Under the pieces are notes generated by a model. The model saw nothing but the letters and a program-made list of their open reading frames with translations, was not told the origin of the DNA and did not search any database. This document shows positions 34,386-36,072 of a stretch of DNA of 64,000 nucleotides, piece after piece. The position numbers were made by a program, and so were the translations under genes. Positions within the stretch are counted from its first letter, which is position 1. Each line of letters starts with the position of its first letter. Source of the stretch: Anaerolineales bacterium (GTDB lineage Bacteria > Chloroflexota > Anaerolineae > Anaerolineales > UBA11579); assembly GCA_019637805.1 (NCBI GenBank), contig JAHBVB010000001.1, positions 633,875-697,874 on the forward strand, written 5' to 3'.

Positions 34386-35159
34386 ATGCCCTTTATTGAA
34401 CTGGACGACGTAAAGCTGTACTACGAAGAGCACGGCAAAGGCGAGCCGATCGTCTTCACCCACGGCAATTCGATGTACCACGGGCAGTGGGAACCGCAGG
34501 TGGCCGAGCTTTCCAAGAAGTACCGTGTCATCCTCTGGGATGTGCGCGGCCACGGGAACAGCAGCCTGCCGCCCGGCGAGGTAGACCCTGAATCCTTCAG
34601 CCGCGACCTCATCGCTCTGCTCGATGGGCTGAAGATCAAGTCCGCCGTGCTCTGCGGGCTGTCGATGGGCGGGCACATCTCACTGCAGGCCGCGGTGCGC
34701 TACCCCGAGCGGGTGCGCGGCCTGGTGCTCATCGGCACGCCCTTCTCCAACAACTACCACTGGTACGACAAATGGCTGGTGGCCATGAATCTGTTCAGCG
34801 TGCGCCTGCTGCCCTACGAGACCACCGCCAAATGGACCGCCCAGGCGGTCAACATCAAACACCGCGACATCGTGGAAAAGGGCTTCGCTTCCATGACCCA
34901 CGACGAATTCCTGCGCCAGTGGGCGGGCAATCTGCGCCTGGAAACCAAGCACGACTTGCACAAAGTGGGGTGCCCTACCGTGATCCTGCATGGCGACAAA
35001 GACGTCTTCGTGGCCCGCCAACAGGCGGCGTTGACCGAAGGCATCGCCGGCGCGCAGTACTACTCCATCCCCAACGCCGGCCACCTGACCAACCTGGACA
35101 ACCCCGAGGCGGTCAACCAACACATCGACGATTTCATGCAAAGCCTGGCTGCCAAATAG
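34386..35159 (+). CDS. Alpha/beta-fold hydrolase
   Basis: The 257-residue protein has the typical order: GEPIVFTHGNSMYHGQW (oxyanion HGN), LWDVRGHGNSS, nucleophile elbow CGLSMGGHISLQAA, acid in VILHGDKDVFV and the catalytic His in PNAGHLTNLDNPEAV. ATG at 34386 is preceded by CTGGAG; a slightly longer frame reaches back into the terminator. It is likely a soluble esterase, peptidase or related hydrolase; substrate unknown. It sits between the tRNA terminator and the phenylalanine-hydroxylase leader. Confidence 0.9.
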   Translation: MPFIELDDVKLYYEEHGKGEPIVFTHGNSMYHGQWEPQVAELSKKYRVILWDVRGHGNSSLPPGEVDPESFSRDLIALLDGLKIKSAVLCGLSMGGHISLQAAVRYPERVRGLVLIGTPFSNNYHWYDKWLVAMNLFSVRLLPYETTAKWTAQAVNIKHRDIVEKGFASMTHDEFLRQWAGNLRLETKHDLHKVGCPTVILHGDKDVFVARQQAALTEGIAGAQYYSIPNAGHLTNLDNPEAVNQHIDDFMQSLAAK

Positions 35160-35166
35160 CGCCGTC

Positions 35167-35175
35167 TGTTATAAT
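35167..35175 (+). promoter_or_regulatory. Extended -10 promoter of the phhA leader
   Basis: TGTTATAAT (35167-35175) is a TGn-extended consensus -10. Its start point would fall at about 35182-35183, immediately before the leader-peptide ATG at 35184, so the leader message is leaderless or nearly so. Confidence 0.75.
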
Positions 35176-35183
35176 CCCGGCCA

Positions 35184-35264
35184 ATGGCATTCCAAAACGG
35201 CTCCCGAGATTACGCCTATTATTATGCTGAGCCCCACTTGGCCGTTTTGTCCTGCCTAGAGTAA
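35184..35264 (+). CDS. Tyrosine-rich 26-residue leader peptide upstream of phenylalanine hydroxylase
   Basis: ATG at 35184 opens a 26-codon frame ending at TAA (35262-35264). Residues 10-14 are Y-A-Y-Y-Y (codons TAC GCC TAT TAT TAT, 35211-35225), with one Phe at residue 3; four Tyr in 26 is extreme. It lies between an extended -10 promoter and an intrinsic terminator just before the gene for the tyrosine-forming enzyme. By analogy with amino-acid operon attenuators, the peptide would sense charged tRNA-Tyr by ribosome stalling. It is too short for routine gene calling, and no ribosome site is needed if the message is leaderless. Confidence 0.75.
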   Translation: MAFQNGSRDYAYYYAEPHLAVLSCLE

Positions 35265-35318
35265 CCCCTTCGCGAACCCCGCTTAGCAAAACCACAGGCA
35301 AACGGCCTGTGGTTTTTT
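35193..35318 (+). promoter_or_regulatory. Putative tyrosine attenuator controlling phhA
   Basis: Three competing segments are visible. Segment 1, CAAAACGGC (35193-35201), inside the leader peptide just before the Tyr codons, pairs with segment 2, GCCGTTTTG (35241-35249). Segment 2 can instead pair, GGCCGTTT (35240-35247), with AAACGGCC (35300-35307), which is the loop and part of the 3' arm of the terminator. A ribosome stalled at the Tyr codons would cover segment 1, freeing segment 2 to block the terminator; with ample Tyr the terminator forms. The logic follows the classical trp/phe attenuators; the mechanism here is inferred. Confidence 0.72.
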
Positions 35319-35320
35319 GT
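35288..35320 (+). terminator. Intrinsic terminator (attenuator) in front of phhA
   Basis: Twelve-bp stem AAAACCACAGGC/GCCTGTGGTTTT (35288-35299 with 35305-35316), loop AAACG, followed by further T residues. It lies only 24 nt before the phhA ATG, so transcription into phhA must read through it. Confidence 0.92.
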
Positions 35321-35343
35321 TTAAGCGGCCAAGGAGATAGGAA

Positions 35344-36072
35344 ATGACCCTGCACCGCAACGAAACTGTCGCCCTCAGCGGCCGCGACCTGGCGTTCAGC
35401 CAGGCGCAGCACGCGGTCTGGCGCGACCTGTACGCCCGCCAGCTGCCCAATATCCAAAAATACGCCTGCGCCGAATATCTGCAAGGCTTTGCGCTGCTGG
35501 GGCTGCCCGCCGAGCGCATCCCCCAGCTGGCCGAGCTGAATGCCGCCATCACGCCGCGCACCGGGTGGCGCACGGTGCGCACCGTGGTGCGCTACTCCGA
35601 TGCGGTGCCCTGGTACCACCATTTCGCCAAACGCCAGTTCCTGATCACCGACTACATGCGCGAGCGGCACGAAATGGACTTCACTCCTGAGCCGGACATG
35701 TTCCACGATATCTTCGGCCACCTGCCCTTCATGGTCCTGCCGGACTACACCGCCCTGCAGGAGCTGTTCGCCCCGGCCTTCCTGAAGGCCACCCCGCAGC
35801 AACGTGAGAACATCAAACGGCTGGCTTGGTTCAGCACGGAATTTGGGTTGATCCGCGAAGGCGGCCAGACCAAGATCTTTGGGGCGGGGTTGCTGTCCTC
35901 GTATGGCGAGATCCAGCATGTGATGGAGGGCAAAACGCCGGTACGGCCTTTCACCATCGAAAATGTGATCGGCTACGAGAAGGCGATTTACACCTTCAAT
36001 GAAGTCCTGTTTGTCTTTGATTCCGTAGAGGCGTTGAGGGTCGAACTGGCGCGCTACTTTGATACGCTTTAG
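35344..36072 (+). CDS. phhA: Phenylalanine 4-monooxygenase (biopterin-dependent aromatic amino acid hydroxylase)
   Basis: The 242-residue protein shows the aromatic hydroxylase core: RRFLI-type FAKRQFLITDYMRE, then PEPDMFHDIFGHLPFM with the two iron-binding His (HxxxxH), and the third ligand Glu in LAWFSTEFGLI. GAGLLSSYGEIQ follows, as in bacterial PhhA. The enzyme converts Phe to Tyr with tetrahydropterin and oxygen. AAGGAG precedes the ATG. Expression probably depends on the tyrosine leader upstream. Its stop overlaps the convergent chelatase-subunit stop by 4 nt. Tryptophan or tyrosine hydroxylase activity is less likely for a bacterial protein of this size. Confidence 0.93.
   Translation: MTLHRNETVALSGRDLAFSQAQHAVWRDLYARQLPNIQKYACAEYLQGFALLGLPAERIPQLAELNAAITPRTGWRTVRTVVRYSDAVPWYHHFAKRQFLITDYMRERHEMDFTPEPDMFHDIFGHLPFMVLPDYTALQELFAPAFLKATPQQRENIKRLAWFSTEFGLIREGGQTKIFGAGLLSSYGEIQHVMEGKTPVRPFTIENVIGYEKAIYTFNEVLFVFDSVEALRVELARYFDTL

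Follow-up and report, generated by a model that had tools for sequence, protein, structure and literature searches.

A probable tyrosine-sensing leader-peptide attenuator in front of the phenylalanine hydroxylase gene phhA in Chloroflexota

The region upstream of phhA

The window analysed here is a stretch of 64,000 nucleotides from an Anaerolineales bacterium, and it includes phhA, the gene encoding phenylalanine 4-monooxygenase. Between this gene and an upstream ORF for an alpha/beta-hydrolase, which ends at position 35159 (128 nt 5' of the terminator described below), there is a promoter element, a short ORF rich in tyrosine codons and a strong intrinsic terminator (Table 1). All the elements listed in an earlier note on this DNA, i.e., the -10 element, the 26-codon ORF with its YAYYY run, segments 1 and 2, the terminator and phhA, were found where that note had placed them. 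In addition to its Pfam assignment, the product of phhA matched the NCBIfam model for phenylalanine 4-monooxygenase (NF008877) with an E value of 1.5e-64, which is strong and yet under the curated cut-off of the model. A scan with Rfam gave no match in the leader region at the gathering threshold, the T-box riboswitch included; the amino-acid leader families (Trp_leader, Phe_leader, His_leader and others) were likewise unmatched, and the scan of the window yielded only tRNA.

Table 1. Features of the phhA leader and their positions in the window
Feature	Position	Strand	Sequence or composition	Basis or remark
Extended -10 element	35167-35175	+	TGTTATAAT	sequence; transcript start predicted at about 35182-35184
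Leader ORF	35184-35264	+	MAFQNGSRDYAYYYAEPHLAVLSCLE, 26 codons and TAA	Tyr-rich ORF conserved in 10 genomes
Segment 1	about 35192-35201	+	CAAAACGGC	potential partner of segment 2 in a pro-terminator hairpin
Regulatory Tyr codons	35211-35225	+	TAC GCC TAT TAT TAT	4-5 Tyr codons clustered in 10/10 leaders
Antiterminator 5' strand	35234-35249	+	CCAC TT GGCCGTTTTG	in leader ORF, directly 3' of the Tyr codons
Segment 2	35240-35249	+	GGCCGTTTTG	sequence
Intrinsic terminator hairpin	35288-35316	+	AAAACCACAGGC-AAACG-GCCTGTGGTTTT, 12 bp stem, loop AAACG	terminator scan
Terminator segment	35300-35307	+	AAACGGCC	sequence
U-tract continuation	35317-35322	+	TTGTTT	sequence; present in 10/10 leaders
phhA, phenylalanine 4-monooxygenase	35344-36072	+	242 aa	Pfam Biopterin_H, E 8.4e-41

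The ATG of the leader ORF is located 8 nt 3' of the extended -10 box, and transcription probably starts 0-2 nt upstream of this ATG; with such a start the leader ORF is practically leaderless. The -35 region is poor in the genome of the window. The four Tyr codons of the leader begin at 35211, 35217, 35220 and 35223, and across all 64 kb of the window, in six frames, this leader is the sole site with at least four Tyr in five codons. Only one of 1082 short ORFs in the window shows such a run, namely the leader itself, and its occurrence is not due to chance. On the other side of the terminator, the distance from the end of the stem to phhA is 27 nt (18-29 nt across the leaders compared below), a gap that is too short for a further promoter. 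Expression of phhA thus requires read-through, and it is predicted that the gene can only be transcribed from the leader promoter, or from promoters further upstream, by polymerases that pass the hairpin.

Conservation of the unit in relatives

Homologues of PhhA were gathered from relatives, and the leaders compared here belong to eight species of the genus of the window and to two other genera of the same family (L009 and L010). A promoter, a nearly leaderless Tyr-rich ORF, a terminator and phhA were present in this order in 10/10 genomes of these three genera, the window included; the genus genomes G003, G004 and G006 are incomplete and do not show phhA, and in G023 the gene is cut at the end of a contig. 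The leader-bearing Chloroflexota are uncultured bacteria. A -10 element was found in 10/10 leaders, and in eight relatives it is preceded by a clear -35 element, so that TTGAC(C/A/T) is followed after 16-17 nt by TAGAAT, TATAAT or TACAAT; the window and L002, its closest relative, have the -10 only. The leader ATG in the relatives lies 8-10 nt after the -10 box.

The leader ORFs span 26-32 codons and contain 4-5 Tyr codons within 5-9 codons. The codons TAT and TAC interchange freely among the ten leaders and the reading frame is kept. The residues that surround the tyrosines diverge strongly by lineage (DYAYYYAEPH, AYTYLYYAETT, SYTYSYYYANGK and LYRPYYYAVTH), and therefore the tyrosines are the conserved feature of this peptide. 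The terminator stem was retained with compensatory changes in 10/10 leaders, and stems of 9-14 bp with a U-tract occur in all the bacterial cases. The upstream neighbours vary, and promoter, leader, terminator and phhA remain linked; in L007 a terminator-like hairpin ends the upstream unit ahead of the leader promoter. The earlier note had named the lack of the Tyr codons or of the pairing in homologous upstream regions as the observation that would speak against its proposal; both are retained in 10/10 close relatives, the window included.

A covariance model built from the ten leaders revealed no extra member at E < 1e-21 in 61 genomes. Matches of the model R1 that covered only the terminator (positions about 112-147) resemble ordinary terminators and were disregarded. 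In L011 (genome G015, where TyrA is present), the region approximately 100-150 nt 5' of phhA contains a terminator as well as a short ORF, MISNFIFPCTPVPVLNHRFS, in which a few codons are for Phe and none is for Tyr; this ORF may be a degenerate or a Phe-related leader.

Antiterminator pairing

In 10/10 leaders, the codons 3' of the Tyr run are complementary to the loop and the 3' arm of the terminator. In the window, CCAC-TT-GGCCGTTT pairs with AAACGGCC-T-GTGG; in six relatives GAGACCAC...GGCTGC (GGCGGC in L004) pairs with GCGGCC...GTGGTCTT or a variant of it, and in L010 CCACA-C-GGCCGG pairs with CCGGCC-TGTGG. The suggestion that segment 2 disrupts the terminator is borne out in so far as this pairing is present; however, the strand reaches further than was described, given that CCAC (35234-35237) also pairs with GTGG and so takes up more of the 3' arm. 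The energies of the antiterminator duplex range from -14.6 to -25.3 kcal/mol across the leaders (-19.0 in the window), and the strand favours the 3' arm and the loop (-15 to -25 kcal/mol) over the 5' arm (-8 to -13 kcal/mol).

In most leaders the pairing exceeds what is expected by chance. Permutation of the codons gave p values of 0.0065 for the window, <0.0005 for L007 and 0.032 for L010; the values for L002 (0.15) and L009 (0.12) were not significant, and the antiterminator of L009 is weak. When only synonymous codons were shuffled, p ranged from 0.0035 to 0.38; the peptide leaves few bases free to vary, which makes this control weak, and these values indicate that part of the pairing is dictated by the peptide sequence. 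In the alignment of the genus, 95% of the cells were paired, versus 32-64% when the partner was slid. The covariation that the earlier note had proposed to look for was found in the terminator stem and in the pairs between the terminator loop and the antiterminator: among the loop positions of helix B, one pair shows a compensatory change from CG to UA and another appears as UG, CG or UA, and L010 carries G-C at the UA/CG covarying pair.

The pairing of segment 1 with segment 2 is a different case. In the window this duplex reaches -22.0 kcal/mol (codon-permutation p=0.015); by the same permutation in the relatives, it is mostly weaker and not clearly or consistently above chance outside the own lineage of the window. 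Segment 1 and the terminator had been viewed as competitors for segment 2; the terminator side of this competition, the antiterminator, is present in 10/10 leaders, and the 1:2 pairing turned out to be the least conserved part of the structure, so that it is probably an auxiliary, pro-terminator element.

Folding with the ribosome in place

Static minimum-energy folds of the entire leader were not informative, since RNA upstream of the ribosome could pair around it; folding was restricted to the stretch of RNA left free on the downstream side of the ribosome, with the 3' end growing through the terminator. A ribosome placed on the stop codon lets the terminator fold in 10/10 leaders. When it is placed on the middle Tyr codon, the first structure to form is the antiterminator in 10/10, and this was the full-length minimum-energy structure in 7/10, the window among them; in L002, L006 and L009 the final minimum-energy fold reverts to the terminator despite the stalled ribosome. 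Leaders in which the codons after the Tyr run were permuted reached a full-length antiterminator in 0-4% of the cases (0.3% for the window). At an early stage (+5 nt) permuted leaders also pair, with frequencies of 9-72%, and hence the discriminating outcome is the full-length fold. Under this constrained folding, the placement of the regulatory codons fits the switch in 10/10 leaders for the first-formed structure. A stalled ribosome had also been expected to hide segment 1. It is fully covered only at the first Tyr codon; at the later ones the edge of the ribosome is immediately 3' of segment 1, so that coverage is partial, and folding with pairing permitted behind the ribosome closes the 1:2 helix around it.

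The tyrosine route in leader-bearing genomes

A search for TyrA (PF02153) found no homologue in the genus (11/11 genomes negative) or in G012 and G017, the other leader-bearing genomes; the same search was positive in 14/14 control genomes. The presence of the leader correlates with the absence of TyrA: none of the 10 bacterial genomes with the leader has the enzyme, and 22/22 checked genomes that have phhA without the leader encode it; of these 22, G347, G208, G366 and G330 were classed by family and not by their own upstream DNA. The labels follow the PhhA tree with a single change (83/86 support), and consequently these observations are not independent. TyrA being absent with the leader and present without it, phhA is probably the only tyrosine route of these bacteria, and the pattern fits a leader that accompanies phhA where PhhA is the sole source of Tyr. 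Prephenate dehydratase (PDT) was not found in 11/11 genus genomes (G000 and ten genus mates), from which it follows that the genus probably imports phenylalanine. Together these absences suggest a phenylalanine auxotroph that obtains Tyr only through PhhA.

Proposed mechanism and alternative explanations

We propose, with a probability of roughly 0.88, that this locus controls phhA by ribosome-mediated attenuation of transcription, with charged tRNA-Tyr as the signal that is sensed. In this model, transcription would begin on the leader AUG or right beside it, giving a nearly leaderless RNA on which a ribosome would load. If tRNA-Tyr is charged, this ribosome would pass the Tyr codons and move on across the antiterminator strand, which it covers, as far as the stop codon; with this strand occupied, the terminator would fold and transcription would stop 5' of phhA. 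When Tyr is scarce, the ribosome would stall on the YAYYY codons and leave exposed the strand just ahead of it, which would pair with the emerging loop and 3' arm of the terminator and allow read-through into phhA. If the leader is not translated, segment 1 could pair with segment 2 and favour termination. Translation of the leader, stalling, the efficiency of termination and the response to Tyr are the steps that we infer from the arrangement of these elements. Every testable feature that defines leader-peptide attenuators was found in the DNA, and by these features the locus fits this class and would work like a classical member of it; the interpretation of the earlier note is thus supported, at the level of sequence, with the amendments given above.

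Other explanations of the same elements were considered. Given that the hydrolase ORF ends 128 nt before it, the hairpin might merely terminate the upstream gene, the Tyr-rich ORF being accidental. Nevertheless, a promoter sits between the hydrolase and the terminator, the unit from promoter to phhA is kept across differing upstream neighbours, and the Tyr codons and the antiterminator are conserved; we give this explanation hardly any credence. Arrest of the ribosome by the nascent leader peptide, in response to Tyr or to another effector and not to tRNA charging, could be read from the residues AETTPAALPC, which follow the Tyr run and are nearly invariant in six relatives. However, the codons of these residues are the antiterminator strand, which accounts for their conservation, and the window, L009 and L010 keep the pairing with other residues at these places, so that a peptide-based sensor seems very unlikely.

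It is just as improbable that the switch acts chiefly on translation of phhA or on the stability of its mRNA, or via Rho, with the hairpin as a barrier and not a terminator. Some leader-peptide systems do act on translation, but the stem of 9-14 bp with a U-tract is found in all bacterial cases, and the Shine-Dalgarno sequence of phhA (35332-35338) lies outside both structures. Finally, T-boxes are known to sense tRNA-Tyr in other bacteria, and a T-box or a small-molecule riboswitch could bind tRNA-Tyr or Tyr directly; against this, the region matched neither the T-box nor any other Rfam family, the leader has only about 135 nt that are mostly coding, and the chance of a direct sensor is practically nil.

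Other leader-peptide units in Anaerolineae

The leader covariance model also matches other leader units of Anaerolineae that have the expected genes behind them. In L103 (around 1467-1661) a Tyr leader and a terminator precede tyrS; this leader has a Shine-Dalgarno sequence and is therefore not leaderless. Four further candidates with a Tyr-rich leader and a terminator (L172, L179, L201 and L222) were observed among 70 tyrS upstream regions. Leaders with Phe and Tyr, such as MKGYWSFFYAYFYGAPKAAVASR, are followed by a terminator and an aroH-type chorismate mutase with PDT (around locus position 1500); L095 was tested, and L083, L088 and L111 look alike; FFYAYFYG and AYMYTFYF occur among the leaders of these four loci. 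A MNVFGRFYFYAYWFTGSAEAVARA leader precedes the DAHP synthase cluster of L085; the leader of this locus (around 1497-1632), MNVFGRFYFYAYWFTG, has all three aromatic amino acids, with an aromatic-pathway cluster behind it. In L090 a His leader (MAELYFHAHHHGIS...) lies before hisG, and Leu leaders (LLLG) were seen before leuS in L118, which was tested, and in L110, which is alike. In L104 there is a leader with a Leu run (ALLLLD), for which no target gene was identified. The six loci scanned against the Rfam leader families (L083, L085, L090, L095, L103 and L118) gave no match, i.e., the Rfam models tested overlook these leaders. These candidates suggest that leader-peptide attenuation is widespread in Anaerolineae, in front of tyrS, aroH/pheA, hisG and leuS.

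A related locus in the archaeon GW2011_AR15

The archaeon GW2011_AR15 has a phhA whose protein is 60% identical to PhhA of the window and, in the PhhA tree, groups with those of the leader-bearing bacteria, where it forms a long branch. Upstream of this gene (about 3017) lies a Tyr-run ORF, MHKPAAQSKYSYYYYC (L025:2885-2935), the run of which is the sole case of five Tyr in six codons in 400 kb of this genome. A TATA-like element, TTTAAATA, is found approximately 27 nt 5' of its ATG, a distance that fits the start of an archaeal leaderless transcript. Mutually exclusive competing hairpins follow MHKPAAQSKYSYYYYC, with no clear terminator seen after the ORF, and TyrA was not found above the cut-off in this genome. 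A phylum-wide search around the archaeon gave only distant relatives of PhhA, with 29-32% identity. It is conceivable, though on balance rather doubtful, that phhA and its Tyr leader were transferred between a bacterium and GW2011_AR15 and that MHKPAAQSKYSYYYYC would still control phhA by stalling. If true, a leader peptide would control amino-acid synthesis in Archaea, and the locus makes it testable whether such control can work there.

Comparison with known attenuators

Leader-peptide attenuators are known for Trp, Phe, His, Leu, Ile/Val and Thr, mostly from Proteobacteria and Actinobacteria. The attenuators of trp, pheA and pheST in E. coli (TrpL, PheL) likewise have codons of the product, alternative hairpins and an intrinsic terminator; in contrast, in the locus described here Tyr would be sensed, phhA would be controlled, the leader is nearly leaderless and it has no Rfam leader match. 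In the classical 1:2/2:3/3:4 scheme the antiterminator strand takes the 5' arm of the terminator, whereas that of the phhA leader takes the loop and the 3' arm, a preference that represents a small architectural difference.

Previous surveys have reported amino-acid leader peptides in Proteobacteria, Actinobacteria and Firmicutes (PMC2965389, PMC1262725, PMC9413887). The His leader peptides of Firmicutes are, like the phhA leader, comparative-genomics finds outside Proteobacteria and Actinobacteria (PMC2965389, PMC9413887), for another amino acid, other genes and another phylum. Within the searched literature, no Tyr-specific leader-peptide attenuator was described and no report pairing "tyrosine codons" with "leader peptide" was found, and the literature matches described no attenuator in Chloroflexota. 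The only experimentally studied leader with a Tyr codon found in this literature was AroR of Corynebacterium glutamicum, with Phe-Tyr-Phe upstream of aroF, which uses attenuation by a stalled ribosome, as proposed here; according to the review PMC11802643, which cites Neshat et al. 2014, it responds to Phe, and Tyr availability is without effect. A Tyr-specific attenuator in Chloroflexota would fill a gap among the known leader-peptide attenuators. The trpL leader of Sinorhizobium meliloti is leaderless at its AUG and acts by stalled-ribosome attenuation (PMC7298713), as would the phhA leader, and differs from it in the amino acid (Trp), the gene (trpE(G)) and the group (Alphaproteobacteria).

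The supply of Tyr by phenylalanine hydroxylase (PAH) in bacteria that lack TyrA is already known: in the passages of PMC7311316 on this route (GapMind), Dyella japonica, as is the case here, obtains Tyr from PAH without prephenate or arogenate dehydrogenase, and these same passages make no mention of attenuation regulating phhA. The leader described here shows how tyrosine supply could be regulated in TyrA-less bacteria for which phenylalanine hydroxylase is the only route to this amino acid. The known regulator of phhA in Pseudomonas is the activator PhhR (PMC1173090); in the Chloroflexota with the Tyr leader this gene, best known as catabolic, would be under biosynthetic control.
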